Below, piece by piece: positions 9,822-64,000 of a stretch of DNA of 64,000 bases (the first letter of the stretch is position 1; every line of letters begins with the position of its first letter). A program made the position numbers and the translations under genes. The stretch is from Posidonia oceanica (Eukaryota; Streptophyta; Magnoliopsida; Alismatales; Posidoniaceae), in contig JAZBRS010000029.1 of assembly GCA_037176725.1 (NCBI GenBank), positions 40,744,001 to 40,808,000 of the forward strand. The letters run 5' to 3'. The notes under the pieces were generated by a model. The model was not told the DNA's origin, made no database searches, and was given only the letters and a program-made list of their open reading frames with translations.

Positions 9822-9824
9822 ACC

Positions 9825-29585: not shown

Positions 29586-29692
29586 CATCAGTATTATTTT
29601 ACAATCTAGCTTGGCAAAACGGAAATAAAGGAAAATACAAACAAGGAACTAAATGTCTTATTTACAAATTTTGAAATGGATTAACATTGCCC

Positions 29693-40440: not shown

Positions 40441-40449
40441 AGCAAAAGG

Positions 40450-42552
40450 AGTCACCACTTAGTCTATTTATCGGAAAGACGAGGCAAATCGGGAAGAAAG
40501 CATGAAAATGCGTGCATTGCAATGCAAAATGTATGACTGGTGCCAATGGATGAGACACTATGGTTATTGCGGGCCAGAGAAAGGGTAAGGACTCCAGTTA
40601 CGCATGGGGAAGGGGTTAGGCACCCCCATGCACTCGACGAGTCGGTCTTTCTAAGCTTATTCGCTCGCATGTGTGGGAATGTCGGCAATTGAATACCAAT
40701 TATTATATGCCCGGGGGCGATGGATGCCATGCCATGATGTATGATTTAATGTCGCTAGATACATGCTAGAAACGAATGCTTGATATTGAATGCCATGCTA
40801 TAATGCTTAAAACATGTGGATAGAAACAAGGCTAAAGCAAGGAATCACAGGTATGCAATGTAAACAAGGAAAACTCATGCTCAGTTAACTATCTAGGTGG
40901 TCTGATCTGGGTTTCTCGCGCTGGGTCTGCACGCCAGTAGTTCCTGCTAGGAGGATACGCTAGATTTGGTCACCAGTATGGCACGCCAGGTCCTGACGCT
41001 AATATGGTGCACCCCAGTTTTTACAGACATACACATAGGAACTTCATTGCATAATTATGATTCAAAAACGATTAAAGCAAGGTGGGAACAAATTGACGAA
41101 GCACAAGGGAGGTCCAGAGACCAAAATGCAACAATCAAAACATGGGATGGCTGTGTGGAATGCTCCACCCACCTCCGTGCCCCATTGGCGAGTCACGTTG
41201 GGTCCTTCGGCCACGACGAAGGCCGGGAAGCCCCATGACGCCGCCGAGGTGCTCTGGGGAGGTCTGGAAGGTTAGGTGAGATGCAATGCAAGTGAGAAAA
41301 CATGAAATGGCGTGTCCCCACTCTCCCCTCCATGGCGTCGACTCCACCAGTCATGGAGCAGACGGTTGGCCATTGGCACAGCCGGAGGAGGCGACGCCGC
41401 GTCACCGAGGGGCTTAGGGAGCTATGCGCAAATGTGGGGGTGCGGCCTATTCGAGCTCATTGGCCTCTGGCCAAGCAGGAAGTTGAGAGCACACCTCGGA
41501 TGCAAATGGATGTCAGCGGTAAACCAAGGAAGAAAATGATGCAAAAATGGCATTCAAGAAACAAACAGGAAACACAACTAGACTACATTGCTACGGGGGA
41601 GGCGAGGCTATACTTGGGTGGATTCCGGCGCATGGTCTCCCGGTGTAGTGAGTCACGGCGTGCGTCGGTCGGCTCGGTTAGGGTGGCGAGCTGCGGTGTG
41701 GGCTATTTTGTGGGCTGCGATGTGGCCTACGGTGTGGCCTACAATGGTGCGAGGTGTTCGGGTTGCTTTCGTTACTCTCAGGTTGTGCTCGCACAGGAGG
41801 TCTGGTTTGCCCAGGAATTGCACACACCTCTCTTGCTCTCCCAATTCCCTGTTTTTGTTGCCTGCTTGTGTGGTGCTGGTGGCCGAGGTGGCGTGCTACG
41901 GTGCGGGCTTAGAGTGGCAGGGAGTGGCGAGGCGTGCGGTGCAGAGAGCATGTTGTGCAGCAGGAGCGCCGAAACCAAGCCGTTCACTCACGCCTGGTCA
42001 CCGGTACAGTGCACGGGCGCATGTGGTCGAGTGCAATGGCTAAAACTCAGAGGACACGGGTGGCTCAAGATTGGATGGATGCATGATGGCTAGGGTACTC
42101 CACAGTACGTGCATGCTAGTGGGGGGAGAGAATTAAGCATTTTCGTGGTTAAGAAACACTTGAGTTCTCTGCAGATTTTAATCTGACACAGGGCACTGGG
42201 CTGGCATTTTGCACCGGTCGTGGTCGCTTGGATGATTCGCCTTGTATTTCCACTGGCTGTCTCCGCGAGCTAGCTGCACCAGGAACTGACGCTTGCTATT
42301 CGTGCTAAGACTATGTCAGAGGCTTTGCTGCTCTTGAGCTCATTCCCATGGAGTCCTGGGCCATCAAACGGGCTTGGGCTTTTGGCTCTGGTGGTTTTAG
42401 GGTTTCAGTGGGTTTTTAAGGTGTGTTTGGTGTATTGGGTTGATTTTGAAGTGGTAGGTTTGGCTTGGGATATGGGTTTGCGGCCGCCATGCCCGAGAAT
42501 GCTCCTCTGGAGAAACCTGCCGACGAACGACTACAAAATTGGGGTGTCTACA
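40450..42552 (-). repeat. 3' LTR of Tat-D (inner end approximate)
   Basis: The right edge is exact: TGTAGACACCCC on the minus strand, preceded in element sense by a polypurine tract. The left edge is estimated. Near 40,450 the minus strand reads AAGTGGTGACTCC, which resembles the primer-binding sequence of some Tat elements, so a tandem LTR arrangement is not excluded. A 263-codon plus-strand frame at 41,302-42,093 lies in it but shows no known domain and is probably spurious. Confidence 0.6.
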
Positions 42553-45600: not shown

Positions 45601-48067
45601 GAAATGGCACTGCTCGGGTGAGTTCTGCCTGAGATGGTTGATGCTTGACATCCTCTCGACGCTGCTTGTTTATCCAAAGCCGGTTTTTTGGATTATACAA
45701 ATTTTTATGGGTTTTTTCATTTTACACATGTTTTTGGGTTTTGTCAGTTTTGTGATTTTTAGGGTTTTTTTGCTTTTATAGAAAAAACATAAAATCAAAA
45801 ACTAGCGGAAAGGGAAACATGTTTTTGTCGTTTTTTTGCATATTTGAATTTTTGTGCTTTTGTATTTTTCAAGATGTAGGAAATGAAATGCTCATGCAGA
45901 GAAAGTAGAAGCATGTTTTTTGGTTCTTTATGGTTTTTATACTTTTTATGGTTTTTTGATAATGCGAGAAAACGCAAAAGCAAACAAAATGGAAAAAACG
46001 AAAGACGATGCCAGAAAAAAAAGGGGAAGGTAAGAGGGGCTTACTTGTCAGCAACCTAAGGATGGAGGTGTTGGAACCGCCCCCGCACCGGCACTGCCCT
46101 AACATCCCTGGCTGCGTTCTCTCTCATCCTTGCAAAGCTGTTCTGACTAAACCAAGGAGATAGGATGCCTAAGATATGGGACGGCAAAGGGGGTTGGAAC
46201 GAGACTGATGAGATCAGAAGGATCCATTGGGGAAGAGATAGAATCGGGAGTGATGAGATTGACTCCTGAGGCCCCAGCACCGTTGGAGCTTGCAAACCCA
46301 CGCGAGGGATGGCTGGGCAGACCAAGGTGCGCCGGTGTTGACGGTGGCATCGGATCTACCTCTTGCACCCTGATGCGAAGGACCTTCCAGTCGATGAGGC
46401 CCTGAACGGCGTCTCGCAATTATGGATATGGGGTTTTGGAGGGAAAAAAACGAGGCTTCCTTCTTGACGACGTCTATCGCTCTCTCGGGGTCCCCTTTTG
46501 TTGTATCCAACTTCTCCACTCCACGTGTGAGGAAGTTGGTGTGATCGCCACTCTCGATTCGCTTGCGCTGGCCCTCGAGACACCTTGGGAGATGTGATAT
46601 GTGTTGCGGGTTCAGCTACCTTGGGACAACACCAGCGTTGCCCAAGGGTGCCCGTGCTTTGGTGAGTTTCTTCTTCTTCTTCTTCTTCTTCTTCCTTGCA
46701 AAAAAAACAGAATGATATGAAAGATATGGGTTAATTTGGTGTAGTAAGTAATCCTAAAATAAAACTAAAAATCAACATAAATTAATCAAAGAAATACTTA
46801 CCCGAGGGATTTTTATCCCCCCCGGTTGTAACTAAATATGAATATGCCTAGCTACAACAATATGGAAAATAACATGCGATATGCAAATGTGTAAAGCGAA
46901 ATATAATGCTAAAGTAAAACCCCCTTTGGATGTAGTGGAATGTTTGGAACAGGAAGGATTAACGTCACGTAATCGACGACAAACTCTCAAGCTTTTAAGC
47001 TCTTCCTTTCTCTTTCTCTCTCTTTATATTTTTTCTCTCAAGTCTATATTTTCTCAATTCAAACCCTTTTCAAAAATCTCGTCTAATCTCTATTTTCTGG
47101 TCTCAAATTTGTGTCCTAGGTCCCCTCTCAAGGTTGAAGGAAGAATAAAAATGTGCCAATGGGGAGCCAACTTATCAAAGTTTCCAAAACAGAAACGTTG
47201 GACACATGATATGGCGCAGCTAACGTTATATGCTGGGAAAGCAGCGTCTAACGACCTCCCGAGCTACAGCTGTTGTGGATCAAGAATATTCTCCCCTAAG
47301 TGCTGATTAACTGTGATTAAGCCACTCTTAATTGACATTAAAAGGCTTTGACCGGTCAAGGAGTCCAAAATTGGTAAAGGAATCAAGATAAAATTTGGGC
47401 CAAATAAGGAAGGTTGATAAAGCAAATTGCCGCTGTAAGACGCATGGAACCATGCGTCTTACGTTGGACGACTGGAATCCCATGTACAATGACCCTCCAA
47501 GGTACAGCTGTGGATTTGAAGGAATAATTAGCAATTAATGATGGATTAATGCTAATTAAACACAGATTTGTTAATCAATTGGTCAACGGACCCCTAAAAG
47601 GAGTAACAAACAGGCCCTCGGATTTGGCTAAATAAGGAAAGTTGTGGTCAACACTGGGTTTCAACGTTGGACGTTGGTACACTAGTGTCCAATGTTAAAC
47701 GCAGGGACACCCGCGTCTAACACACACAGGCAATCCACCTTCCAAATTTGGCCAAGAAATTAAGGGAGCTTATATTGTTGTCATTGAAGTATAAATAAAG
47801 GATCTCTTAAAGGCACGAAGACAATGTGGTAACCTGGGGACCAAATTGGACCTAAGAACTGGGCTGATCGGACAACAGTTCGCAGAGTTGTTATATGAGT
47901 TATATGCTGCGTCGTCCAGCAAAGCACTCTTCTAACACCCACGATAAGCGTTTAGCTCGAATGAGAGAGCTTTGGTCGAGAAAAGGAGCTCTAGAGGTAA
48001 ACTGAGTACGATATGATGCAAAAGGGTTTCACTACAATGAAGGGAGTGCCAAAATGGGGTATCTATA
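45600..48067 (-). repeat. 3' LTR of Tat-C (inner end approximate)
   Basis: Outer end near 48,067, where the expected CTACA reads CTATA (one transition). The block near 46,560-46,860 aligns with the Tat-A LTR near 5,700-5,960. It contains a (TTC)n run at about 46,669-46,696, a perfect 13-base inverted repeat at 47435-47462, and copies of the dyad motif at 47216-47233 and 47685-47702 plus a partial one at 47,244. Confidence 0.65.
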
Positions 48068-48084
48068 GATTGCCCCTCCTTGAA
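48068..48084 (-). other. Polypurine tract of Tat-C
   Basis: Minus strand TTCAAGGAGGGGCAATC, matching the Tat-D tract. Places the element interior to the right of 48,067. Confidence 0.75.
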
Positions 48085-48196
48085 GCTGGCTTCAGCACAA
48101 AGCTAGCTACAAGGCGAGACGATACCCCCGTATGGCACTACCCATGGTTCTAAGAGAAATCCAATGCCTGCTGCCACCAGGCTTGGACGAGACACA

Positions 48197-48450
48197 ATGA
48201 GGGTCGAATGAAGAGACACGACCATGGGGGTTACCCAAGGGGGTCAAACTAAAAGACACGGCCATAAGGGTTGCCTGGGGGGGTCAAGCTAAAAGACATG
48301 GCCGTGGGGGTTGCTTGGGGTGGTCAAACTAAAAGACACGGCCAAAGGGATTGCCCTAGGGGGTCAAACTAAAAGACACGGCCAAAGGGGTTGCCCGCGG
48401 GGGTCAAACTAAAAGACACGGCCAAGGAGATTGCCCTAAGGGGTCAAACT
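48197..48450 (+). repeat. 40-bp tandem array, about 6 copies
   Basis: Unit GGGGGTCAAACTAAAAGACA then CGGCCAAAGGGGTTGCCCGC. The same family returns at 49,441-49,983. Confidence 0.9.
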
Positions 48451-48689
48451 AAGAGATGGATAGCAAATGTATCCAACGACCACTCAATGCGAATGCAATG
48501 CAATGTGCTATGCATGGATGCGTGCTGGTTGGAATGCAAGGGAGGTGATCATGAATGTAATGCATGACCCTAGATAATGAGGTTCCTCTCTCATTTCCGG
48601 CTTTGATTTGTATACTGAGTTGGCTAAGGAATTTTCTCATTACCTAAAGCGAACTGACACATGCATGAACACAATTTGTCATAGTCAAG

Positions 48690-49435
48690 TGCCCTTTCAT
48701 TGAGTGTAGTCTACACTCTCGACAGGGACCGTCGTTCTATGATACGCAGGTTGATAAGCGAGAGGTCCATGATGTTCCCAGGTGTTGGGCAAAGGGGGTT
48801 GACCTCTTCTCTGCTAGCTGCGTTGGCTTTATTTATCATAATCGGGTGTCTTTTCATTGAATGTAACCTACATTCTCGACAGGGACCGTCATCTTATGAT
48901 CCGTGAATTAGTAAACAAAAGGTCCACTAATATCGTTGGCTTGGTTTGTCAGATCAGGCATCCTTTCATCAAATGTTGCCTACATTCTCGACAGAAACCG
49001 TCATCTCATAACCCAGGAATTAGTGAACAATGAGTCCACTAAATACCGTTGGCTTTGTTTGTCAAATCAGGTATCCTTTCATTGAATGTTGCCTACATTC
49101 TCGACAGAAACCGTCATCTCACGACCCGTGAATTTAGTGAACAATGGGTCCACTAAATACCATTGGCTTTGTTTGTCAAATCAGGTGTCCATTCATCGAA
49201 TGTTGCCTACATTCCCAACAGAGACCGTCATCTCATGACCCGTGAATTAGTGAATGATGGGTCTACTAAATACCGTTGGCTTTATTGGTCAAATCAAGTA
49301 TCCTTTCATTGAATGTTGGCTACATTCTCGATAGAGACCGTCATCTCATGACCTGTGAATTAGTGAATGATGGGTCCACTAATGCCATTTGCTTTGTTTA
49401 CCCAGTTTTGCTTTGGGATCATGAACAAGGAGTTT
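48690..49435 (+). repeat. About 114-bp tandem array, 6 copies
   Basis: Units contain TTTCATTGAATGTTGCCTAC, CTCGACAGRRACCGTCATCT and CCGTTGGCTTTGTTTGTC. It separates two arrays of the 40-bp family. Confidence 0.9.
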
Positions 49436-49440
49436 TTTGG

Positions 49441-49983
49441 AAGACACGACCAAAGGGGTCGATTTGAAAGACAGCCTAGGGGATTGCCCGAGGGGGTTGA
49501 ACAGGAAATTTAAAAGACACAGCCAGGGGGATTGCCCGAGGGGGTCGAATAGGAAATTTAAAAGACACAGCCAAGGGGATTGCCCGAGGGGGTCGAACAG
49601 GAACTTAAAAAGACACAGCCAAGGGGATTGCCCGAGGGGGTCGAATTGGAAGACTCTACCAGGGGGATTGCCCGAGGGGGTCGAATTTGAAAGACTCTAC
49701 CAGGGGGATTGCCCAAGGGGGTCGAATCTGAAAGACACTGCTAGGGGGATTGCCCGAGGGGGTCGAATTTGAAAGACACTGCCAAGGAGATTATCCGAAG
49801 GGGTCGAATTTGAAAGACTCTGCCAGGGGGATTGCCGAAGGGGTCGAATTTGAAAAACTCAGCCAGGAGGATTGCCCGAGGGGGTCGAATTTGAAAGACT
49901 CATCTAGGGAGATTGCCTGAGTGGGTCGAATTGAAAGACTCAGCCAGGGGGATTGCCCGAGGGGGTCGAATTGAAAGTCTCAT
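49441..49983 (+). repeat. 40-48-bp tandem array, about 13 copies
   Basis: Unit GGGGGTCGAATTTGAAAGAC then TCTGCCAGGGGGATTGCCCGA; the first few copies carry an extra 7-8 bases. Related to the array at 48,197. Confidence 0.9.
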
Positions 49984-50078
49984 TCTCAAATAGTGTTGGC
50001 TTTGTTTACCCAGTTGTGCTCCGGGGTTTCTAGATTTATCTTTTTCTCTGCTCTGGAGCGTTGGACCCTTGATCTACT

Positions 50079-50255
50079 GTGTCCAACGTTAGACACACCT
50101 ATTCCTGCGTCTAACGTTAAATGGCCTGACGGCTGCGTTTAACACCTCGAGACAGACTGCCTTTCTTTCCTTGCTTGATATCACCAATACGGCAGTAAAT
50201 CTATGATTTCTCGATTGCTTCCTTTCCTGTGAGGATTCCATGGCCTATATTAAGC
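50079..50255 (+). promoter_or_regulatory. Putative promoter of PMD-1 with dyad motifs
   Basis: Motif copies GTGTCCAACGTTAGACAC (50079-50096, nearly a perfect palindrome) and GCGTCTAACGTTAAATGG (50107-50124). TATATTAAG at 50247-50255 lies about 90 bases before the PMD-1 ATG. Confidence 0.5.
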
Positions 50256-50341
50256 CCCTCCCTTGGCTTAGGATTTCAAAACACAAGTGAAACTCTTCTT
50301 TGTTTGTTTCTGGTATTTGTGAGGGAATTGCAACTGTCCTC

Positions 50342-51723
50342 ATGGATTTGAATGAGATTCCTTGTCACGCTTTTAAAGTGGCCAACTTTTCCTCCCCTTC
50401 CGACCAAATGTAGCTTCGATTAGAGGCTATGCCTAACCATCTGGTGAATCTTCTGGTGAACGAGAAGGTATGCTGCTTTCTTTTCCTTTTCTTTCTTCCG
50501 TTTTTCTTTTGTTTTTCTTTTCCTGTACCGATCTCTTCCTTTTCTTTTCCTCTTTCGTAGCCTCTAGCTTCCTCAAATAGTGACAGGGATGGTAAGGCCT
50601 ACCAACTGGATTGGGTCCAAAATTTCCGAACTTGGACACTAAAGAGGTACCGAGAGCAATTGGAGGAGGTTGGCTTCTGTCAAATCCTCTAGCAACTGCG
50701 GCAGCCCATTGACTAGAAGGCACTCTTCGGCCTTTATGGGCTATGGAACCCCCTTACCCACACATTCTTCACCTCTGCAGGGGAGCTTACTATTCTTCTG
50801 GAGGAGGTAAGCACTTTATTAGGCACTCGACCTGCTAATCCTTCCATTTATTCCAGGGATGCATAGTTGCGTACCTATTGCCAACTAGGGTGGTAGGATC
50901 TTTCTCTCTCCTAAAACGCATCTTTGGCTCCATCATTGCCCTTGAGGATCTGGTGCTGGATGGCTACATCAACCTCACTTCTCTGTGGAAATTCTTTTCA
51001 AAGCAGCGGGACGACATTCGTTCGAAAGCCTCTTGCCTGGAGTGCATCTTTATCTTGATTGGTGGGTTGGCGCTCTTCGCAAATGAGGCTCTAACCATTA
51101 GCGCATATCATGCTGAACTTATGTGCATGAGCATCTGCAATCTGGAGAAAAGCTTGAGTCAATCTGTGCTGGCCTTCACCATTTGGGGTTTATCCAGTGC
51201 TTGCCTCAGTGGACCATTCTTTGGGTCGCCTTTTCTGGTTCTGCGGTGGCTGGATGAGCATATTCTGCTACCTGCTCTTGATGCTGGTCTTCCCCTCAAG
51301 GAGTATGTTCAGAGGTTCTGCATATGTGAGGTTAAGCCTCAGATTGATTTCTTCAATCACCTCTCAACATTCCGGACAGCCTACAATCCTGAGTATTTCT
51401 TGACGCTTGTCGGGGCAACAGAATTCGTGAGGTACAATCCCCAACGCTGCTTTTCTATGTTGGGCATTCCTCGAGCTATACCTCCCATGCATCGCTTCTC
51501 GGATATGATCCTTCCGCGCCTGAGGGACACCCCTGGAGATCTTGCTCAAGTCTACTTCCACTCCGGCATCTGGGATGGAAAAGGACAGAGTCGCGTCCTT
51601 TCTTTGTGGGATAATCCAAATGTGGACCGTGAAGCCATCTCCAACACTACTCATGATGTTTGGTACGAGGGGGTGAAGCCCAATTTATTTATTGAGTTTC
51701 CTGCGAAGAAGCAAAAGTTGTAA
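50342..51723 (+). pseudogene. PMD-1: plant mobile domain gene, three exons, broken
   Basis: Antisense to Tat-C pol. Exons 50342-50467, 50561-50806 and 50857-51723, all joined in phase 0 with GT/AG introns of 93 and 50 bp. Exon 2 carries GLYGLWNPLTHTFFTSAGEL, the N-terminal PMD pattern; exon 3 has LIGGLALFANEALTISAYHA, GPFFGSPFLVLRW and RYNPQRCFSMLG, shared with PMD-3. It ends EFPAKKQKL, a basic tail. About 412 codons. Three TAG codons break it: near 50,408, near 50,690 and near 50,717. Fused exons keep one frame, so it decayed recently by point changes. The function of PMD proteins is poorly known; some act in transposon silencing. Confidence 0.75.
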
Positions 51724-51874
51724 TCAATATTTTATCTTTAATCATCAATTAAAGTCATATTTTATTTTCCTTTGCCTACTTCCCCTCTTTCTAGCACATC
51801 TTCATGGTTTTTATCAAAGAGAACTTAAGTTCAAAAAACTCCCTGTATCAGAGGTGTTAGATGCATGAACTGGC

Positions 51875-52019
51875 GCGTCCAACGTTATCCACGAGATTTC
51901 CTGCATATAATGTTTTCCCTTCTTTGGGGTGTTGGACACGTCAGTTTACGCGGACAACGTTTTTGCCTGCCGACGCGTTGGACGGCCCAACTCACGTATA
52001 TAACGTTGATTGGTATAAA
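51875..52019 (+). promoter_or_regulatory. Putative promoter of PMD-2 with dyad motif
   Basis: Motif GCGTCCAACGTTATCCAC at 51875-51892, further TTGGACACGTC and CGCGTTGGACGG words, and TATAAAA at 52013-52019, about 124 bases before the ATG. Confidence 0.55.
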
Positions 52020-52142
52020 ACCTCTGTTTTACACAACAGGCGGGCATCCTTTCTTCCTCTTCTCCTCTTCTCTGGCGATAGCGATCTTCTCTCCTCCAGT
52101 GACGTCTCCCTGATTTCGGCGAGGTCCCTTCTTCCATTCAAG

Positions 52143-55100
52143 ATGGAGAAACGGATTTCCTACTTCTATTCTCAGGCGGCGAAACGTGCCCAGATGGGAC
52201 CCGAGCCTTCAACTCCCGGCGAGCCCGCATTGGAGGCTCCAGCGGCTGCCCTGACTGTAGAGGAGACGGCGGTGGTGACTATAGAGGTTGGTGCTGGGGC
52301 TGCGGGGGGCGGAGCTACGACCGTGGAGGCCGGTACCAGGGCTACGGGTGGCTATGTTGTGGCTACAGAGGTGGTGGCCGCAGGTGGGGACGCCGACGAT
52401 TCGGCTAGGGCAGCGACTGTGGCTATAGAGGTGGTGGCCGCAGTGACTGAGGTGGTGGTGACTGGTGGGGATGCCGTGGAGGCCGAGGTAGTGGCTGGGG
52501 TAGTGGGCGACAATTCCATGGAGGTCGAGGCTGTGGCTGCAGCGATAGAGACGGAGACTGCCGGCGATGACGCTACGGAGGTTGGGGCAGTTCCAAGTGC
52601 GAGCTCCGACGATTCCACTAGTTCCAAGGTAGAGGACTCAGAGGAGATGGTTTCCGAGGAGGAGGTGGCCGAGGTGGCACCTGTCGACCCTCTGGTTGCT
52701 CAATTTGGTGAGAACGATGGGTGGTACCACAACATTCTGGATTTCGTCCAGCAGGAGGAGGAGGGTGGCGCCATGGATCCCCTGGACTTTTGGCAAGCCC
52801 AGATTCCCCACGATGAGGTTCAGGCGTCGGGACCGTGTAGGAACACGTCCCAGATGGAGTATGCCACTACCACTTTGGCCTTGAGAGGACAGGTAACCCT
52901 CCTTTTAATCTTTTCCTCATTTAATTTGATTATATCTACCTACTTGACAATTCTTTTCTCTTGCAGAGTCGGGCCTCGGCAGTGGTTCAGTGTTACTGGG
53001 GGCGGGTCCACCGATCCTATGACATGCTGGCTCCCTTTCAGCAGGAGTGCCTAGGCGAGATGGGATTTGGACACTTCCTATCCATTCCTGACTTTCCTCT
53101 ACGTCCCATGTTTCTGGAGGCAGTTACGGAACGGTATAACTACCAGACTAGCTCCATAGTTACGAGGGTGGGCGAGTTCATCCTTTCACTGGAGGACATG
53201 GCCCAGCTAACTGGCCTATGGGTGACGGGCCGCCTGGTGACTAGACGGGTTCGCTCAGATTATACTGCCATGGTGAGGGAGCTGGTAGGCAGGTAGGTGA
53301 CTATGTATGGGCACCAGCTCTTAGTCATTTCTTCTGTGATTCACCGGGTCGAGGAGTTGGCAGCGACGATGGCTGAGCCAAGCGTAGAGGCTGACCAGCA
53401 GCTCAGGGCTTTCCTATTGGTGCTGTTTGGGGAGGTCCTCTTCTCCCATGCTTCTTCAAAGCTGTCTGCCGTCTTCCTGCCTCTTTTGGCGGATTTGGAT
53501 TGAGTGGGAGAGTATGCTTGGGGAGCAGCTAGCTTAGCTCACCTGTACTCGACCCTCTTCTGCTTTACCAATGGCAGTTCTTGTCAGTTGGGTGGGAACT
53601 TGCCTTTCCTCCGGGTAAAATAATATACTTGTTTGCTTGCTTGTAAATACTTCTTGCACGATATGATATAATAATTGAACACTTATGTTTCTTATGCAGA
53701 TGTGGGCGTGGGATCACTTCGCCTTCTTGCGAACCACTCCTCCTCCTGTTCCTCTGGCGGGCGTACCTTTCCCCCGAGGATTATTCTGGGCTGATGCTGA
53801 GCAAGCCCTCGAGCCAGTGGATGACAACCGCTATGTCGGTCTACTTTTCGAGTTGCTGGTCCCAGCTCAGGTAACTTGCCTCTTTTCTCCTTTCTGCTTC
53901 TGCTTATTCATTCATCTGATATTCCTTTTGTTCTTTTCAGGTGGTCTGGTGCCCCTATGCTGAGGGGGAACACGAGGACGTCCCAGAGATTGCCTGGGAT
54001 CGGGTCATCTTTACCAGGGACATTTGGATCCACTACTGGAACCATTGCCATTTCCAGCAGATCAGCAGGGCGCTTCGGCAGTTAGGGCGCTGATAGATCC
54101 AGCCTCTCCCTCCTCCTCATAGGGTTTGGCGGGAGACTCGAGGCGAAGGCAGCCGTGCTCATCACTAGGTCGACGTCTATGGCCCGTAGCTGCTGGACTG
54201 GGCTCGTCATGGCTCTCCTACTCCGGTGGACGTGACAGAGGAGGATGAGGCTGCCTGGGCCGGATGGATGGACGCTGAGTTCTCTTCGCTGATGATCTTC
54301 CACCGGACCCACTTCCTCGGGCACTTGAACCTTCCTATGGGGGACTCAGACCTTGGGGAGGCTGTGATGTCCCAAGTGGCACTGCTGGCGGAGGCTCAGT
54401 CATATCGTGCCCAGCTGGAGATAACGGTGAGCTTTTAAATTTTATTTATAACCTGCCAATTCAATTTGCTAACTTGCTTCTTTTCTTTTTGTAGCTCAAG
54501 GCTGGAGACGAGCAGGCTCAGCAGGAGTGGGGCTTGACTCAGCAGCTCTCTGCTCTGATTGGGGAGATTGAGCGCCTCCGTGCTTCTGCCTCTCAGGTAG
54601 ATTTGAATTTTTAGAGCTTTTATAACCTGATTATGAACTGTAGCTAATTGTATATTTTCCTTCTTTGCAGCCTTCTACTAGTTCTACGCCTCCCCTTAAT
54701 CACTCGGAGGAGATCTCCCGACTCCAGGATAAGGTATAAATATTTTTCTACTTTTGGATTAAGTCCTTTCTTGATTCTAACATTGTTGCCTGCAGGTTGC
54801 TTATCTGGAGAATGAACTGAAGGAGCAGGCTGGTGACTTTATTGCTGCTAGCTCAGTCGGGAGACTGGAGGAGTTGAAGGGGACTGTCACCTCCCAAGCC
54901 ACCCGCATCTGGGAGTTGGAGCAGCAGGTTGCAGACAGGGATGCTAAGGTTACCAGGACTCAGATGGTATAATCAGCTTTGCTTCAGCTTTTCTCTTATT
55001 TCTTTGTCCTTACTTGTATAATCACTCTCTTTTCCTTTCTACAGAGTTTGCATGGCACCGAGGGGGTCATCTCACAGCTTGAGATCGAGCTAGGACACTA

Positions 55101-55353
55101 CAGGAAGCTTGCCTACATAAGTGGTGCCAAGTTAAAGCAGCCAGTTCCTCCTCCACCGAGCCACCATTCAGGTAGTCACCGCTCCCGATCTGTCTCTAGG
55201 GCTCCGTCAGGTGTTTCAGTTCGTCAGTCTCCTCAGCCTCCTACTGTTCCTCCTTCAGTTCCAGAGGGTGAGGGAGAGAGCGTCCGTCAGTCTCCTCAGC
55301 CTCCTGTTGCTCCTTCTTCAGTTCCAGAGGGTAAGGGAGAGAGTGTCCCTTAG
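52143..55353 (+). pseudogene. PMD-2: PMD plus coiled-coil gene, eight exons, broken
   Basis: Exons: 52143-52892, 52967-53614, 53700-53870, 53941-54426, 54495-54596, 54671-54733, 54796-54966, 55045-55353; introns have GT/AG ends and are 67-85 bp. Residues 1-240: Ala/Val/Gly/Glu-rich low complexity. Exon 2 has the PMD core (FLSIPDFPLRPMFLEAVTER, VGEFILSLEDMAQLTGL). Exons 3-4 continue (MWAWDHFAFL, WNHCHFQQISRALRQLG). Exons 4-8 form a coiled coil (LEQQVADRDAKVTRTQM) and a Pro-rich tail with two SVRQSPQPP repeats. Breaks: TAG near 53,294, TGA near 53,502, and stops plus a frameshift between 54,090 and 54,230. An AATAAA lies at 55403. The start MEKRISYF is the first ATG after the TATA box in this frame. 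Confidence 0.75.
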
Positions 55354-55791
55354 ATAGATCTTCATTTTGTACTTCAGGGGTATGCCCTGGTGATTTTTGT
55401 AAAATAAACTTATTTTTGAATGAAGAATTTCTGCATACTCAACAAAATTGTCAAATATCTCTTTTGAATTACCTTTCTCGGAGTTAAAATGAATTTAAGC
55501 GACCAATATAGTTAACTTGAAACCAGCGTATTCATTTGAAATAATATGTAAATGACAAAGTTATGAAGAAAGATTTCACCTGTGAGCTTTAAAATCAATT
55601 TTTTTAGGTTGTCGGCGCCTTAGCAAGCCATTAACTCAATGAAATGCATACTTGATGATTCTGAATAGCCCGAATGTCCAAAAAATACGAAACCAGCGCT
55701 CGCACGTGTATTCCAACTTGATTAAGCCTTTGGAATCGACAAACGTGGTTTATGCAACTCAAACACCAATTTAGGGGAGCCGTAGCCAAGT

Positions 55792-56067
55792 TCAGTAACT
55801 TAAGTCATTGATAAAACGTAAGACGCGTGATCTGGTGCGGCTAATGTTATACGCTGGAATGTCTGCGTCCAATGCTGAAAGCTGGTTTGAACGCAAGACG
55901 CTTGATATGACGCGTATTACATAGGACGCGCCAGTTCAAGCGTACAACGAAGCGAGCACAGAATCCTTTCTTTTCTTTCTTGCTCTTGGCTAATTTTCTG
56001 GAATGCTGCAAGATTTTCTCAATGCCCACATGGAGGATCTCCGACGGTCCTCCTGTGCTTATAAAAG
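55792..56067 (+). promoter_or_regulatory. Putative promoter of PMD-3 with dyad motif
   Basis: An 85-base block from 55,792 (CTTAAGTCATTGATAAAACG, then GCGGCTAATGTTATACGC at 55837-55854) that recurs at 57,672. Further GACGC words follow. TATAAAAG at 56060-56067 lies about 94 bases before the ATG. Confidence 0.6.
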
Positions 56068-56160
56068 CCTGACGACCCCTTGGGATGCATACACCTTGTT
56101 CCTTGTATTTTTGCTTGTATTCTTTTGCTTGTGCTTGTCCATCCCTTCTCCCTTGTTCTC

Positions 56161-57453
56161 ATGGCATCTGCTTCAGTCCCCAATGTCTCTATGCACAATA
56201 AGAGAGGAATTGCAAAACCTCTGGAGGAAATTGAAGGGTACATGATGTCCCATATTAAGACCGAGAATGTATGATTCTCCTCATTGGTTTCTCACCCTTT
56301 CTTGTTTCTCATCTTTTGCTCTTGTTTGCAGGAAATTCTCGATTTTACGAAGGCACCCTGTTTTGACAATGATTTTCCTTACTATTCTCCCTGGGTGAAG
56401 GAATTTGTGCCTTGGGCTCTGGAAAGAAAATCCGTCTTAACACACACAAGCTTTGGTGGGCTCTTGGACTTGTTGGGAATTGCTTTGGACTGGCCTTTGC
56501 TCCATGCCTTATGCGCTTTCTGGAGTACTAAAACTCACACTTTCTTCCTCGGGGGCTGTGAGATGACGATCTTGGTGGAGGATGTTCACGGCCTTCTTGG
56601 TGTTACTCAGATTGGGGCCTTCCAATCAGATACCAACTTCCCATTGCCATATGGAAAAGCAAATATGCAAGTGTTCATGGATCGTATCTTCACTGCTCCA
56701 CCCACTTTCCCGGTACTCAAAGGTCGCCGGCTCAACTTGGCACATCTGTATTATAGCTTCCGCCGGATCAAGGATTCTGCCATCGAGGATCAACTACAGA
56801 TCTGTCTACATTTATTGATTGGAGGTCTCACTGTATTTGTCTCCAAGGACTTTACCTTGGACGTTTATCATATCGAGCTCTTGGTGGGGCTCACCGAGCA
56901 CTTTTGGTGTTCTCCTTCGGTTGCCATCCTTGCAGCCACATACCTCGGTCTAACTAGTGTATCAACCAGAGGGGATTTCGTAGGCTCTCCTTTTCTTCTT
57001 TCCAAGTGGTTGCATGTCCACTTCCCGAGACTCAAGCTTGCGAAGACTGATCTTATTGAGGAGAGAATCTGCTTCCTGTCCTCTACTTCTATCAACATCT
57101 TCACACCCTCCACGCCATTTTGTCGCAAACACCAGGTGCAAGGGTCTCCGGTTGAATTAGAATTAATTGGGCCTACCCACTTCGTGGTGTACAACTCTCA
57201 TCGCTGCTTTGAGATGGTAGGGCAAAAGAAGGGGGTGCCGCCTCGACTAAGTTCTATTCCTCGTATCCGAACTCGAGAACGCGGCTTTTCAACTGATGCA
57301 GTGATGGTGTACTATATTCGAGCTCTTTGGGCGACCTTGGACCATCACGATGACTCAGATGGGACCCACTCTACTCCTTTGACTTGTTGTCTACTCCAAG
57401 AGGATGAGCACTGGAGTTGGTACTCAAAGCTGCTACCCAAGCCCAAGGAGTAG
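56161..57453 (+). CDS. PMD-3: plant mobile domain protein, two exons, intact
   Basis: Exon 1 56161-56268 (36 codons, MASASVPNVSMHNKRG), intron 56269-56331 (63 bp, GT/AG, pyrimidine-rich before the acceptor), exon 2 56332-57453 (373 codons plus TAG); 409 residues. PMD features: WPLLHALCAFWSTKTHTFFL and EMTILVEDVHGLLGVTQIG near residues 95-140, then CLHLLIGGLTVFVSKDFTLD and GSPFLLSKWLHVHF near 215-290. It aligns with PMD-1 through the second half. No stop or frameshift, unlike PMD-1, PMD-2 and pol. It lies antisense in the Tat-C 3' region, under its own TATA box and dyad motif. The start is chosen as the first ATG after the TATA box that splices in frame. Biochemical role unknown; some relatives help silence transposons. 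Confidence 0.8.
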
Positions 57454-57671
57454 GTTGAGGAGACCGACGTGTTGCGCAAAAAGAGGAAGAGGCCAATTAG
57501 ATAGGCCATCTTTATAGTTCATCTCTATTTTGATCATGTATTTTTAATTCAAGGGATGAATATATATTTTCTTTTATTTCATCTCCTATTCATATGCTTT
57601 GGACTGTGCTGAGTTTAAAAATACTCCATGGTGGCTTTGGCATTGTCTCAAGGACCCCTTTGTCTGAATTC

Positions 57672-57905
57672 AGCAACTTAAGTCACTATTAAAACGTAAG
57701 ACACTCAATCTAGCGTGGCTAACGTTATACGCGTGAAGTCCTGCGTCTGACGTTGCTTTGTTAGTTATTAAACGCAGAAGATGGAACGTCTAACGTTGAA
57801 TGCTGAGATTTGCCTGTTTAACGCCTCTGAACGATTTTCTGCACAATCTTAGCAAACTTGTTATTCCATCTAGGGTTACCATTGCCCCTAGTCTTATATA
57901 GATCA
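57672..57905 (+). promoter_or_regulatory. Orphan promoter-like block downstream of PMD-3
   Basis: Repeats the PMD-3 upstream block (AACTTAAGTCACTATTAAAA; motif GTGGCTAACGTTATACGC at 57715-57732; second copy at 57786-57803) and has a TTATATAG at about 57,893. No PMD gene follows; a tandem array begins at 57,930. It may be the left-over of a lost fourth gene. Confidence 0.45.
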
Positions 57906-57929
57906 AAACGACTTTCATGAAAAGAAAAA

Positions 57930-58200
57930 AAAACTTAAAATGACCTTAAAATAATGAAACCAAAATGACCTTTGAAAAAGCTTAGGATGACCTTAATACA
58001 ACGAAACCAAAGTGACCTTCGACAAACTAAGGTCTTATAATGCAATGAAACCAAAATGACCTTCGAAAAACTAAGGACCTATGAAACCAAAATGACCTTT
58101 GAAAAACTAAGGACTTATAATGCAATGAAACCAAAATGACCCTTGAAAAACTTAAGACTTATAATGCAATGAAACCAAAATGACATTTGAAACGAAAAAA
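57930..58200 (+). repeat. About 44-bp tandem array, 6 copies
   Basis: Unit AATGAAACCAAAATGACCTT then TGAAAAACTAAGGACTTATAATGC, with shortened copies. Confidence 0.88.
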
Positions 58201-59355
58201 CTTAGGTTTTGGATAACAAGCATTGGCCTCGGCTTTGTTGTCTAAAGATGATATGCCTGACGAGGGGCTGTCTCTTCTCGAGATCCCAGTCCTGACTCGT
58301 AGGCGAATACCAAGTGACCGTCCTAAATAGGAGGGGTCAAGTACGACTCGGAGTCGTAAAATTTCCTAGATTTTTGCATCATAGGCGTTGCTAGTTATCA
58401 GTTTCATGAGATGATGTTGGTTGGGTAGATTTTACCCTACTTTCTATTTTTTTGGATTTTTTATCTTTTGCTATTTTTAGATTTTTGGTTTTCTCATTTT
58501 TATTTGGATTTTTGGGTTATCTTATTTTTTGGATTTTTTGTTATCTTATTTTTTGGATTTTTGGTTATCTTATTTTTTTGGATTTTTGGTTATCTTTTTT
58601 TTTTGGATTTTTGGTTATCTTATTTTTTTGGATTTTTGGGGAGTAGAAGAATCTTCCATGGAGTTGGGAAACAAGAGACCTTATGGTTGGAAAACCTTAA
58701 TAATTGAGTCCCTTGTGCACCTTGGAGTCTAAAGATACTTCAGGCTTGCTTTGGCGCCTAACTACCCCTAAACCTAGGCTTCTGCCCCTTGCCTCTATGT
58801 GTGTAGTGTAGGGTGTGGTGAAAGAAAGTCAATGTCCTATCTTGGGATTTCAGCTAAAGATTTGGAGCCTATACCCCTCCTAATTCAAGGTTGATTCCTA
58901 CTGCGCTTGGTAATTCCCAATTTTCAGTTTTGACTCTTGGACAACTTCTTTGCTACCTTCTTTTCCATTCTCTTTCTTTTCTTGCACATGGATAGCTTCT
59001 TTGCTATCTTCTTTTACCTCTTTTCTTTTCTTGGGTACTCTGGCAAGCATCAGTAGTCTCACCCCCTTTTTGAATGCTTGGTCAACAGATATTCGTTGAT
59101 AGGCCGAGACACTCTTCTATTTGGTACACTCCCTTCTTTTCTGTGCTTCTAAGTTTGGCCTTTGACTCAAGGGATGTGTATGGACTTGTTCATGAACTGA
59201 GAGGGGGCTTCTTATGATTTGCCTCTATCTCAGTGTTGGACCATTTCCCCTCCTTCTCCCACAAGGTGTTTGTGAGGTGAGGCTAAGGTATGATTCCTAG
59301 GCTTTGGAAACAGTAGGTTCACAAGCACGGGCAATCTAATGGCTCAGTGTGCATG
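58201..59355. other. Tat-C 3' region between integrase and the gene module
   Basis: Holds a T-rich tract at 58,440-58,640 with TTATTTTTTTGGATTTTTGG repeats, similar to those of Tat-A and Tat-B. GGACAACTTCTTTGCTACC and GGATAGCTTCTTTGCTATC near 58,940-59,010 match words in Tat-A near 1,040-1,150. No gene. Confidence 0.65.
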
Positions 59356-60570
59356 TCAAGGGTAGCACCTTTTGAGGTGCAGCGCATTCCAGGGATATTC
59401 AAGCCTAGTGCCATCCTCTTTGGCCAAACAATAGGCATTGCCCGGATATGTCTCGACCACCAAGTACGGTCCTTTCCAATTTGGTCTCAATTTCCCATGC
59501 TTGCGAGGAAGGATTTCTTTAAGCACCCATTCACCAATATTGAATTTACATTCAATTACTTTCTTTTTATAAGCTCTTGCGAGTCGTTCTTGGTAGAGGC
59601 GTGCATGCTCAACTGCCTGCAACCGCTTTTCATCTAGTAAATCTAACTGTAAACTTAATAATTGTCTCTTATCCTCGGCATTTATTTCATCATCAAGTTG
59701 TATTCTGGATGAAGGGACCATGATTTCAAATGGGACTACTGTCTCCGTACCATAAGTAAGTGCAAACGAGGTTTGACCTGTAGGTGTTCTTATGGAGGTT
59801 CAGTAGGCCCATAAGGTATCAATTAGTTTATCTGTCCAATCAGGTCCCTTGGCACCTCCTACCGTTTTCTTTAGGATTCGGATTAACGTTCTATTAGTAG
59901 CTTCAGCTTGCCCATTACCTTAGGGGTAATATGGTGACGAATGATGCAACTCGATCTTGAACTTCTTGCAAAGCTTTTTGAAGTCCTGGGATACGAAGAT
60001 TGCACCATTATCTGCTATTAATCTCTTTGGAATCCCAAATCTTGAGAGAATGTTCTTCCACACGAACTTGCACAGGCTTGAAGCTTTGATCTCAATGAAC
60101 GATTCTGCTTTGGCCCATTTGGTGAAACACTCAGTGGCAGCAAGTATGAACTTGTTTTGCTTTTCGGTGTCGAAGGGTCCTACGACATCGAATGTCCACA
60201 TGGAGAAGGGCCATACTGCTTGAGTTGGGTTTAACTCTGATGCTGGTGCGTGTATTCTGTCTGCATCGATCTAGCATTGCCTGCACCTTCTCACCTTGTC
60301 TGCACAATCTGCCTCCATTGTGGGCCAGTAATAGCCCCTCTGCAGTATCATTTTAGCCATGAACTGAGAATTGATGTGTCCTCCACATATCCCTTCGTGC
60401 ATTTCTCTAAGGATGACTTCGACCTCCTCGTAGGTGATGCAACGAAGCTCTATTCTGCCGAAGGATCTCTTGAAAAGGACTCTGGCTCTCATGAAATATC
60501 TTGTGGCCATTCTTCTGACTGCCTCGTTATCTTGTGAAGTTGCATATTCAGGGAAGGTCCCGTCTTGAAT
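59356..60570 (-). pseudogene. Tat-C integrase
   Basis: Zinc-binding region near 60,430-60,275 (HEGICGGHINSQ, RRCRQC), catalytic core near 60,200-59,900 (WTFDVVGPFDTEKQ, LIADNGAIFVSQ, then GNGQAEATNRTL after a stop), and C-terminal domain to the natural TGA at 59,356 (WVLKEILPRKHGKLRPNW, HLKRCYP). In-frame stops at 60271-60273 (TAG), 59920-59922 (TAA) and 59800-59802 (TGA) break it; the frame is otherwise kept. Needed for insertion of element cDNA into the genome. Confidence 0.88.
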
Positions 60571-60576
60571 GTAGTT

Positions 60577-61743
60577 CTAGATGTCAAAGAACCACAGGTT
60601 TCCATCATCTTCCATGTTGTAGCAAACTACAAACTTGGTTGCCTTTGATTCCCCAATTCTTTGTTTAAGCTCCACCGCCCATGATTCAGTTGAGTCAATG
60701 ACGGATGTCCTATGCTGTTGTACCATAATCGTTTGCTCTTGGGTATTGATGGGGAACTCAATTGAAGAAGCCAATGAAGCAAAAGCATCTGCCAAAAGGT
60801 TATGACTTCGGAGGGTATGGACATACACCACTTGCTGGAACCTGGCTAACAGTATACGGGCAATGCCCTTATATGTTTCTAGCCTGAGGTTGAGGGTTCT
60901 GTACTTGTTCAGAATTTGCCTTAGAACCAACTGGGAGTCTCCAATGAGCTTTAGCCGCTTTGCCTCTAGCTCCAGAACTAGGCGTAATCCAAGGATCAAG
61001 GCCTTGTATTCTGCAATGTTGTTGGTATTTGCGGTGAAGTTCAGTTGCACAGCTCGTGAGATGAGGACTCCTTCCGAGGTGAGAAGTGCCACTTCTATGC
61101 CTGCAGGCCTATTGAGTGCTCCATCAAAGTAGAGGGTCCATTGTTGACTGGGAGGCTCTACATCTTGTATTTCCACTATTTCCTCATCTGGGAAGTCTGT
61201 TTGGACTGGTTGATAGTCCTCTATTGGTAAACCTACCAAATGATCCACTATGCCTTGCCCCTTGACTGCTTTCTGAGGTACATATTGGAGATCAAACTCA
61301 GTGAGGAAGAGTTGCCATCTTGCTAGCCTTCCAGAGAGGGCGGGCTTTTCGAACATATATTTGATTGGATCCATTTTGGCAATGTAGCAGACTTTATGAG
61401 CTAAGAAATAGTGCCTCAACTTCTGGGATGCCCATACGAAGGCTAAGCAATGTTTTTCTATGGATGTGTACTTTTCCTCGTACTTTAGGAAAGTTCTACT
61501 CAGATAGTAGATAGCCTTCTCTTTCTTTCCGTCTTCATCATGCTGGGCTAGCGCTACTCCTAAGGAGGATGAGGTGATCGCCACATATAGCAACAAAGGC
61601 TTTCCTGGTACAGGTGCTGATAGGACCGGAGGGCTCATGAGGTATGACTTGAGCTCATCAAAGGCTTGCTGCCAACTTTTATCCCAAACAAACTCCTTTC
61701 CTCCCTTCAATAGCTTGTAGAAAGGCATACATCGATCGACGTG
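60577..61743 (-). pseudogene. Tat-C degenerate Ty3 RNase H and second (archaeal-like) RNase H
   Basis: The first RNase H begins near 61,620 (KPLLLYVAITSSSLGVALAQ). The catalytic Asp of the usual DAS motif is not seen, as in the degenerate connection domain of Tat elements. The second begins near 61,140 (WTLYFDGALNRPAGIEVALL) and keeps Asp, Glu (NNIAEYKALILGL) and Asp (LIGDSQLVL), so it is the likely active one. The pair is diagnostic of Tat. Ends at TAG 60577-60579. A TAG at 61744-61746 separates it from RT. Confidence 0.88.
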
Positions 61744-62960
61744 CTACGAGATGAATGTCTTGATGAACTGTAAGCGGCCGATGAGTCCTCTGAGCTCCTT
61801 GATGTTCCGTGGAGGAGGCATTTGTGCTATTGCTCTAGCCTTCTGCAGGTCTACTTCAATTTCTCTTTTGCCAATGATAAAGCCCAGCAATTTCCCAGCA
61901 GTTACTCCAAACACACACTTCTTCGGGTTCATCTTTAACTGATATTGCCTTGCTCTACTTAGTACCCTTCTTAGTGCTTTGAAGTGTCCTTCCCTTGTCT
62001 TTGATTTGACCAAGATATCATCAACAAACACCTCCATGCAGTCGTGCATCATGTCGTGGAAGATTGCCATCATTGCTCTTTGATATGTTGCACCGGCATT
62101 CTTGAGACCGAACGGCATGACCACATAACAGTATGTTCCCCATGGTGTGATGAATGATGTTTTCTCTTGGTCCTCCTCTGCTAGCTTGATTTGATTGTAG
62201 CTAGAGAAGCCATCCATGAATGATAACATCTCGAATCCTGCTGTATTGTCAACTAGCAAGTCGATGTGTGGCAAAGGGAAGTCATCTTTAGGACAAGCGG
62301 CATTGAGGTTGCAATAGTCAATGCAAACCCTAACTTTCCCATCCTTCTTGGCTACTAGCATTATGTTGGAGACCCAGTCAGGATATACGACTACTCTGAT
62401 GAATTTTGCTTTATGAAGCTTGTCGATCTCCTCTTTGACTATGAGTGCTAGCTCTGGCCTCAATCGCCTCAATTTCTGCTTGACTGGTTTAGCTCCAAAG
62501 TTTAGTGGAAGCAGGTGTTCCATTAGGGCTGATTGCAGACCGAGCATGTCCTTGTATTTGATGGCCAACACATCCACAAATTCCTTCAAATTTTGCACCA
62601 TCTCTGCTTGCTCTTGTGGGCTTAAACTGGCACTTATGAGTATTGACTTCGGCTCTTCTGTGGTCCCCAAGTTGACTTCTATGGTCTCTTCCTCGGCTGC
62701 CTTAGTTTGCTCATCATATTTATCCATTAGGTGTTTGAGCAAGTCTGAGTCAGTTTCTTGGTCCTCCTCATCATCGTTACAGCTGACTAGCTCATATGCC
62801 TCAATTCCTGCATACTTCCCAGATCGATCAAACTCTTCTACTAGGAAAACTATGTTAGCAGTAGCTAGCTCCTGAGGCATTGCCTCTGTGTATTGACACA
62901 TGCGCACAGTTTTTGAAGCAGTGGTCGAAGTTGACCGCGAGCTGCTACAACCAACATGGT
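61744..62960 (-). pseudogene. Tat-C reverse transcriptase
   Basis: Upstream acidic segment near 62,700 (NDDEEDQETDSDLL), then RT from about 62,430: AKKDGKVRVCIDYCNLN, DDFPLPHIDLLVDNTAG, SFMDGFSSYNQIKLAEEDQE, VMPFGLKNAGATYQRAMM and the catalytic FVDDILVKSK near 62,010. The box is intact, unlike in the Tekay element. The frame is open for all of RT and ends at TAG 61744-61746. Confidence 0.9.
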
Positions 62961-62970
62961 GATCCTCTCC

Positions 62971-63048
62971 CTTATTGAAAACAGAAAATAAATTGCGACT
63001 ATTTCTAGGAAATGAAAACAATGCAAAATTAAACAGAGTTTTATTTAC
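62971..63048 (-). other. Possible intron between G-patch and RT of Tat-C
   Basis: On the minus strand GTAAATAA at 63048 could be a donor and CAATAAG ending at 62971 an acceptor (78 bases); a shorter 44-base version ends at CCTAG (63005). Ogre elements are reported to carry an intron between protease and RT. Tat-A (GTGAATAA) and Tat-B (GTAAATAA) keep a similar donor-like word. Splicing is not shown. Confidence 0.3.
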
Positions 63049-63244
63049 AGAATCCACGGGGATGCCCCTAGAGTTACCTCCATCAGTAGAGGTTGGTGCC
63101 TTTCTAGGCGGGCTCATCATTGTTGACGTTCCCACCATCTTGGAAAAGCTCATGATTTGCTCCTGGGTCAGGATCAATTTCGAGCTCGTGGGGCCACAGA
63201 TCTTCAGAGAGGTTCACCGTGAGGCGGTGAGCCTTATCTACCAG

Positions 63245-64000
63245 TCATTGTGACCTGCGTAGATTTTGCTCTGTCAGTTGCTCCAAAGAAGAAAAGAGGT
63301 TCAGAGCTAGAGGAAGAGAGGACTTGGAAGCGGCGGTGCCGGAATGAGAGGGAAAAGGAGGGGGTGGCTTGTCCGAAGGTTCGGGAGTCGGTGTGCCTAA
63401 CATTGGTGGTGATGATGATCCCTCGGCAGGCGGAGGGACTTCTGTTGCAGTCTGACCTTCTGGAGGCTCTGCTGGCAACTCTGTTGTAGTCTGACCTTCT
63501 GGAGGCTCTGCTGGCAACTCAAATGGTGGAATCCTTGTTGCAATCTGACCTTCTGGAGGCTCTGTTGGCAACTCGGTTGCAGTCTGACCTTCTGGAGGCT
63601 CTGCTGGCAACTCTAGTGTTTGGAATAAGCCGGAAATGTATTCGTTGGCTGTATCCTCTTCACTTGGGAGGGTAGATTTGGTTGGTTTCACCAATATGAT
63701 ATTTCCCAATGGGGATGTATTCAGATTGAAAATCCCTATGCTAGTGAAATACTTTCGTAAACTCCACTGTAACGGCTGGTCGTCGGGGAACTGGTCGAAA
63801 CCAAGTCCTCCTTTCCCTTCTCTGTCATAAGCCTGGACAGGCTCCTTTCTTCCTTTTCTTTCTAGGCCTAAGCCCTGGCCTTCCTTATAGCCAATCTTTC
63901 TCATGATCTCCCAACCTACGCTCATGGAGGCTCTTCTCGACTTTGGAAATACTTTTCTTTTGTGAACCAGCTTGGGTTTGGCCCATTTGTCCCTTAGCTC
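63245..64000 (-). pseudogene. Tat-C G-patch segment and Pro-rich repeats, partial
   Basis: The frame is open from the window edge. MRKIGYKEGQGLGLERKGRK is a G-patch, an RNA-binding glycine motif known downstream of the protease in Tat/Ogre elements and betaretroviruses. LQWSLRKYFTSIG follows, then four copies of a repeat based on ELPAEPPEGQTAT (63,430-63,612). TGA at 63245-63247 ends it; the same frame continues (LTVNLSEDLWPHELEIDPD) to a TAG near 63,108. Protease and gag must lie beyond 64,000. Confidence 0.75.
63430..63612 (-). repeat. Coding minisatellite in Tat-C
   Basis: Four imperfect copies built on CTTCTGGAGGCTCTGCTGGC on the plus strand, 36-60 bases apart, giving the ELPAEPPEGQ protein repeats. 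Confidence 0.85.

Follow-up and report, generated by a model that had tools for sequence, protein, structure and literature searches.

The stretch of Posidonia oceanica DNA analysed here (C28:40744001-40808000 of the 2.96-Gb assembly, 64,000 nucleotides, hereafter the window) contains a Tat/Ogre-type element on its minus strand, which carries three antisense genes of the PMD type together with several copies of a palindromic block that is common to the upstream regions of these genes, the long terminal repeats (LTRs) and the 5' leader. The element runs on into the adjoining 10 kb past the window (L009; 74 kb together with the window), where its second LTR was found, and measures 24,705 bp according to the LTR coordinates. 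The 3' LTR (46421-48067, minus strand, 1647 bp) and the 5' LTR (L009:5453-7125) are 92.4% identical over 1682 columns (blastn), and the 5-bp target-site duplication at 46416-46420 is repeated with identical bases at L009:7126-7130, the LTR pair and the duplication marking the element as an LTR retrotransposon. The Kimura two-parameter distance between the LTRs is 0.056 (74 transitions and 14 transversions at 1638 sites), which would correspond to an age of about 2.2-4.0 million years under two assumed rates. The initial annotation, made from the sequence of the window, had placed an LTR edge at 48,067, and the second LTR proves it right; by eye, this edge is similar to the LTR starts of two further elements of the window that are probably also Tat. 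It is adjoined by the polypurine tract (48068-48084, minus strand) and, further on, by tandem repeat arrays with units of 40, 113, 48 and 41 bp (48214-49981).

At the other end of the window lies pol (59356-63213, minus strand), comprising reverse transcriptase, RNase H, an additional RNase H, and the zinc finger, core and C-terminus of the integrase. It is free of frameshifts and has five in-frame stops (61744, 60577, 60271, 59920 and 59800). RVT_3 follows RT_RNaseH and the integrase domains lie further downstream; an additional RNase H characterizes Tat elements, and this order Ogre and Retand among them. Part of a gag-protease frame with a G-patch domain (63401-64000, minus strand) reaches the end of the window; its frame differs from that of pol, which opens at 63213, and gag itself is broken. 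Because the LTR pair and the matching target-site duplication enclose them, PMD-1, PMD-2 and PMD-3 lie inside one element, antisense and between pol and the 3' LTR, i.e. they form the multi-gene antisense module that had been proposed.

PMD-1 (50342-51723; exons 50342-50467 and 50561-51723), PMD-2 (52143-55353; exons 52143-52892, 52967-53614, 53700-53870, 53941-54426, 54495-54596, 54671-54733, 54796-54966 and 55045-55353) and PMD-3 (56161-57453; exons 56161-56268 and 56332-57453; 409 residues) follow each other head to tail on the plus strand. PMD-1 and PMD-3 have a single intron each, PMD-2 has eight exons with seven introns of 62-85 nt and a whole number of codons in sum, and all introns are GT-AG and in phase 0. 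TATA-like boxes are located 96, 129 and 101 bases 5' of the ATGs of PMD-1, PMD-2 and PMD-3, respectively. PMD-3 (E 3e-10, 40 bits) and, with stops read as X, exon 2 of PMD-2 (E 1.8e-23, 83.7 bits) match Pfam PF10536 above its cut-off of 34.9, and a piece of exon 2 of PMD-1, also with stops read as X, remains under it (E 5e-6, 26.3 bits). PMD-1 is paralogous with PMD-3 (33% identity over 212 residues, E 6e-23, blastp), and PMD-2 has no significant blastp match to either. The order, strand and type of the genes, the kinship of PMD-1 and PMD-3 and the separate position of PMD-2, the introns in consistent phase and the TATA-like boxes had all been claimed in the initial annotation and are confirmed.

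The genes are not intact here. PMD-1 has three stops (50411, 50690 and 50714) and, near 50.86 kb, differs in length from seven other copies, none of which shows this difference; PMD-2 has six in-frame stops and zero frameshifts; and PMD-3 has one late stop, at a position that is a sense codon in all 20 other copies. In the 19 copies readable at this place (of 20), PMD-3 runs on into a basic tail, which in our reading resembles a nuclear signal. With stop codons in every PMD gene, the window copy is dead. A short second intron in PMD-1 was considered and rejected, as the apparent intron spans PMD-3-like residues (by eye) and the frame-changing length difference is absent from 7/7 copies. Searches for homologous proteins returned only short open reading frames of ENA contigs (2, 4 and 28 matches), among them protein P0002 with a PMD-1-like front fused to a PMD-3-like end, which is either a recombinant element or an assembly artefact; no relatives of PMD-3 were found in IMG/VR, and the best match of a PDB sequence search had an E value of only 0.52.

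The cassette is not confined to the window. DNA searches of the genome scored the best 40 of 5547 candidates for PMD-3 and the best 40 of 6658 for PMD-2; the 40 PMD-3 matches are 91-94% identical to the query, the window itself excepted. Of the 39 other PMD-3 copies listed, 10 have a partner among the listed PMD-2 matches, nine at a distance of ~3.4 kb and one at ~9.3 kb (by eye). We examined 20 of these 39 copies, each with 8.6 kb upstream. PMD-1 (84-100% covered), PMD-2 and PMD-3 occur in the same order in seven of them, ten have pieces of PMD-2 (25-98%) and PMD-3, one of these also with part of PMD-1, and three have PMD-3 alone; absent gene parts may lie past nested insertions. The splice sites are mostly kept in the aligned copies, window included: for PMD-1 the donor in 7/7 and the acceptor in 8/8, for PMD-3 the donor in 19/20 and the acceptor in 19/21, and for PMD-2 the donors in 10/14 to 14/14 and the acceptors in 10/12 to 14/14.

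The block has a length of ~63 bp and is CpG-rich, with 7.3 CpG per 100 bp as compared to 2.9 in 48068-64000 (blocks included). It consists of palindromic half-sites in a fixed register: with the consensus GCGTCYAACGTTA, as defined by us, they follow each other in the order minus, plus, minus, plus at 0, 23, 28 and 51, and the palindromes recur every 28 bp. We rely on the offsets 23, 28 and 51, since the plus/minus offset of 5 is partly implied by the palindromic core. Upstream of the genes and on the plus strand, block P1 (50056-50145) precedes PMD-1 with a TATA-like site at 50246, P2 (51851-52008; best match 51851-51914, weaker to 52008) precedes PMD-2 with a TATA at 52014, and P3 (55812-55949) precedes PMD-3 with a TATA at 56060. 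A fourth, orphan block, P4 (57690-57823, plus strand), lies 3' of PMD-3 and is separated from pol by tandem repeats (57953-58639). It is followed by a TATA-like site at 57897, no PMD-like gene was found behind it, and a fourth PMD gene past P4 was discarded after tblastn with PMD-1, PMD-2 and PMD-3 had found none. The position 57,905, which had been taken as the end of the gene region, is in fact the TATA-like site of this geneless module. The P4 module (57690-57905) looks like a promoter aimed at the 3' end of pol.

The 3' LTR contains three blocks in 47190-47728 (plus strand; 47192-47253, 47435-47472 and 47663-47722), spaced 231-238 bp, and L009 contains three leader blocks in addition to the blocks of the 5' LTR. 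The same block thus recurs in all four modules, in both LTRs and in the 5' leader, i.e. the shared upstream motif described in the initial annotation is real and beyond chance, in the case of P2 by profile match only, but is not restricted to the upstream regions of the PMD genes. TATA-like sites of the LTR are a plus-strand TATAAATA at 47790 and a minus-strand TATAAAG at about 47030. The block arrays of the LTR lie between the two, and the region 47030-47800 is possibly a two-way promoter.

A profile built from two LTR blocks only recovers P3 (E 3e-9), P4 (6e-7), P1 (3e-6) and P2 (0.002) and matches nothing outside the LTR and the modules up to E 10 in the window, and 20 control profiles, in which the columns of the P1/P3/P4 profile were put in random order, gave E 0.49 at best. 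In the 74 kb of window and L009 there is no match at E<=0.01 beyond the LTRs, the leader and the PMD modules. Plain blastn of LTR versus module would not suffice by itself (E 0.013; pairs at E<=0.01 also turned up in 15 of 60 control draws), and we accept the shared block because the profile search settled the matter. Half-site matches with at most three mismatches point in the same direction: 28 of the 39 in the window fall within the LTR and the four modules, five regions that make up 4.3% of it. Compared with the mean of 300 shuffles, the LTR has 9 half-sites versus 0.18, P1 5 versus 0.06, P3 6 versus 0.22 and P4 6 versus 0.16. P2 has 2 versus a mean of 0.16 and a maximum of 3, i.e. it is not significant by count, only its profile match being significant. 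The window's two further LTRs of probable Tat type have 2 and 0 half-sites. Seven blocks align without internal gaps (the row of LTR_c having been shortened deliberately). Where the anchor was found in other copies of the family, the block was present in 5/6 cases for P1, 8/8 for P2, 17/20 for P3 and 20/20 for P4, most P4 matches being incomplete as the examined stretch ends there.

Variants among the copies bear on the question whether the PMD proteins were of use. Ratios of nonsynonymous to synonymous variants (N/S) are given relative to the mutation-weighted expectation, and variants are called shared if they occur in two or more copies. For PMD-3, N/S is 0.52 for shared variants (92 N:86 S; Fisher p 0.006) and 0.86 for singletons, for PMD-2 it is 0.60 (232:191; Fisher p 0.007) and 0.82. 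In wrong frames the shared ratios amount to 0.86-1.13 over the three genes and to 0.88-1.13 for PMD-2 and PMD-3. In contexts free of CpG, TpG and CpA, where variants are few, the shared ratios are 0.29, 0.32 and 0.36 for PMD-3, PMD-2 and PMD-1 (p 0.048, 0.003 and 0.20). Past selection on PMD-2 and PMD-3 as the family spread is supported by these patterns; for PMD-1 it is unproven.

The PMD extra open reading frame of Ogre is reportedly the subject of Steinbauerova 2011, and the antisense gene of Grande that of Gomez-Orte 2013. PMD was described in 57% of Ogre elements, and 3' extra open reading frames in reverse orientation were distinguished (Neumann 2019, PMC6317226). Our element shares with Ogre the additional RNase H between RNase H and integrase, the large size, tandem repeats and PF10536; Ogre also has gag-protease and pol in two frames that an intron separates, to which the difference in frame noted above may correspond. 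Unlike Ogre as described there, our element has three intron-bearing PMD genes of two subtypes, a module without a gene and a block that also occurs in LTR and leader. PMD is the commonest extra domain among the plant LTR elements surveyed in PMC9289625, where its function is called unknown. Antisense genes of the TRP28 type are found in Retand, and one that has a promoter of its own and a nuclear product in Grande (Vicient 2025, PMC11963269). These elements resemble ours in their tandem repeats and in having antisense genes placed between pol and the 3' LTR, whereas the region from pol to 3' LTR spans 2.9-6.6 kb in Grande and Retand and about 11.3 kb here, and the LTR 315-1194 bp and about 1650 bp, respectively. 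Moreover, the genes of Retand are of the TRP28 and not of the PMD type; PF04195 (TRP28, the mark of Retand) was not found in the plus-strand frames scanned from pol to 3' LTR, some short frames having remained outside the scan.

Two further systems concern regulation. VANC binds short motifs that are dense in the non-coding parts of its own VANDAL element (Hosaka 2017, PMC5735166) and acts in anti-silencing (see also Sasaki 2023, PMC10398659); our element resembles it in its accessory proteins and in a short motif dense in its non-coding parts, but the motif is unrelated. A sequence-specific anti-silencer of the VANC kind would bind its motif and remove DNA methylation; binding has been shown for VANC, and the comparison here is one of motif distribution. 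The host PMD proteins MAIN and MAIL1 act in the silencing of transposable elements and in gene expression (PMC7156037, PMC5418596), and the MAIN/MAIL1/PP7L pathway is tied to the DOWN promoter motif, with CATGCAGTTT in the MORC1 promoter (PMC7156037, PMC9899485). The link of PMD proteins to a promoter motif and to silencing would be the parallel with our element, but MAIN/MAIL1/PP7L are host genes, of the PMD-C clade, with a different motif. PMD-A1 and PMD-A2 are clades borne by Gypsy elements, the question of ancestry having been left open (Ikeda 2017, PMC5418596); our PMD genes are likewise encoded inside a Gypsy element. In literature listings and in passages of the papers cited here, Steinbauerova 2011 and Gomez-Orte 2013 excepted, we met neither an element with more than one PMD gene nor a block that recurs in the LTR, nor any account of what a retrotransposon-borne PMD does. 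Precedents thus exist for PMD (Ogre) and for an antisense gene under a promoter of its own (Grande), but apparently not for a cassette of three genes or for the shared block.

One Tat/Ogre-type family therefore combines three antisense PMD genes with conserved splice sites and their own TATA-type upstream regions with a geneless module and the block. Based on this combination we speculate that the PMD proteins regulate the element from within the nucleus, that their genes are read antisense, and may have kept their introns, because the sense genomic RNA cannot be spliced there, and that the blocks serve as operator arrays for a dimeric DNA-binding protein, which might be a product of the element or a host factor working with such products. 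The blocks would then couple PMD expression to LTR activity, most likely aiding transcription of the element against host silencing, as VANC does for VANDAL, which is not an LTR retrotransposon. As a whole, this explanation is the one that we favour, tentatively, as we consider it nearly but not quite probable. The role in expression or silencing control that had been suggested in the initial annotation gains indirect support from the shared block and the nonsynonymous deficit of PMD-2 and PMD-3. A stronger version, in which the element has its own regulon, i.e. PMD genes and LTR are wired to one operator array that is bound by an element PMD lifting the silencing in a VANC-like manner, and in which the element might be a candidate ancestor or mirror of host MAIN/MAIL1, is rather unlikely.

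Several observations weigh against the favoured explanation. The blocks are more variable among copies than their flanks (nucleotide diversity 0.13-0.14 versus 0.07-0.10), also in non-CpG columns (0.085 versus 0.058), and thus no constraint on the block is visible within the family. Half-site columns are identical at 0.70 versus 0.45 for spacers across six blocks (2 of 2000 permutations), but this test is circular, since the blocks compared had also served to define the half-sites, and adding two leader blocks, whose hand-set register may be off, changes the values to 0.55 versus 0.39. The block shows no likeness to the DOWN motif and was rejected as an instance of it; the window has 6 matches with at most one mismatch versus 5.86 expected, none of them in the modules or the LTR. 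As to the proteins, shared N/S of PMD-1 is not significantly reduced (0.68, 37:27, Fisher p 0.23; singletons 0.88), and its transversion-only dN/dS is 1.32, with 0.73 for PMD-3 and 0.49 for PMD-2. Stops are found among the shared variants, too (8, 23 and 4 in PMD-3, PMD-2 and PMD-1), and repeated deamination therefore inflates the shared class, and all N/S values were calibrated on mutation weights and wrong frames, without pol as a yardstick. Finally, in-frame stops, one or more per copy, occur in the compared stretches of 19 of the 20 other copies (frameshifts uncounted), and the stop-free exception, L036, covers PMD-3 only.

The blocks, whose palindrome has an ACGT/AACGTT core, might instead be sites of a host transcription factor, which would fire LTR and PMD genes jointly, the PMD proteins acting at other points of the life cycle. 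The core AACGTT is of the plant bZIP type, this palindrome is dense in the blocks (10 of the 13 in the window lie within the five regions), and a TATA-like site comes after the block in each of the four modules and also in the LTR, there on the plus strand. The fixed 28-bp register, however, exceeds ordinary promoter sites, and so do the blocks of the leader, which yielded no PMD-like gene; we regard this possibility as serious, yet doubtful. Alternatively, the blocks could be a mere repeat left by duplicated promoter or LTR segments, without a role in binding, and the PMD genes could be useful and under ordinary control. The variability just mentioned is in line with such an origin, as are the imperfect repeats in which the LTR blocks lie at their regular spacing and the 79 bp at 78% identity that P3 and P4 share. 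Most module pairs, on the other hand, are similar over the size of the block only (blastn), the seven blocks align without internal gaps and the half-site columns are better conserved than the spacers between blocks, the circularity applying here as well; in our view this renders a mere repeat improbable.

That the genes are inert cargo, i.e. captured host genes decaying in a dead element, is suggested by the stops in all three PMD genes here and by those in the compared stretches of 19 of the 20 other copies, but is hard to reconcile with the nonsynonymous deficit of PMD-2 and PMD-3, which is seen for shared variants in the true frame only, with splice sites that are mostly kept and with a cassette that recurs in 7/20 copies; we disfavour it as very improbable. 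A separate PMD-bearing transposon that inserted secondarily into a Tat copy would predict copies with an empty junction. The 20 copies include one relevant case, L024, which has the LTR, the tandem repeats, the P1 block and PMD-3 and lacks PMD-1 and PMD-2. Here, block P1 is joined directly to the downstream part of P3, and as the junction lies within a stretch that is alike in the P1 and P3 modules (by eye) it fits a recombinational deletion, an ancestral one-gene form being the alternative; similar promoter modules seem to recombine. The block shared with the LTR and the same arrangement in 7/20 dispersed copies also contradict a secondary insertion, and inverted repeats of at least 80 bases are absent from the window (shorter ones were not searched). 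We therefore reject a secondary insertion as scarcely credible.

PMD proteins serve transposon silencing in Arabidopsis, yet part of the PMD family resides in retrotransposons. As LTR, leader and PMD promoters have a defined block in common, one can ask concretely whether an element PMD binds it and thereby alters LTR activity or methylation. Should it do so, the extra genes that giant Tat elements carry would have to be seen as regulators and not as captured cargo.

The remainder of the window contains further repeats and genes. The regions 312-7175 and 28258-34630 are related repeats with shared stretches of 75-80% identity and are probably short Tat elements; the former shows an integrase end and a weak match to gag, the latter no Pfam match in three open reading frames, and neither has a block profile match at E<1. 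A second Gypsy-type pol with an RVP_2 protease is located at 7965-10577 (plus strand), and a zf-RVT fragment, presumably LINE-type, at 27759-28157 (minus strand). The clearest host gene among the scanned open reading frames encodes a ribosomal protein L31 domain (25262-25996, minus strand). The sequences 40314-40874 and L009:9441-10000, on either side of the element, are 93% identical, i.e. the element may sit nested in another repeat. Elsewhere in the genome, the best match among those listed (C75:7965734-7966819) has a full-length PMD domain in a 704-residue open frame and is possibly a host PMD gene. Dozens of the listed PF10536 matches fall into C62:365902-1864070, many of them ~25.4 kb apart and with open frames of ~508 residues; the PMD family differs there, with ~27% identity to PMD-2 in five loci, and the region has the appearance of a tandem array, its units being giant and carrying PMD.

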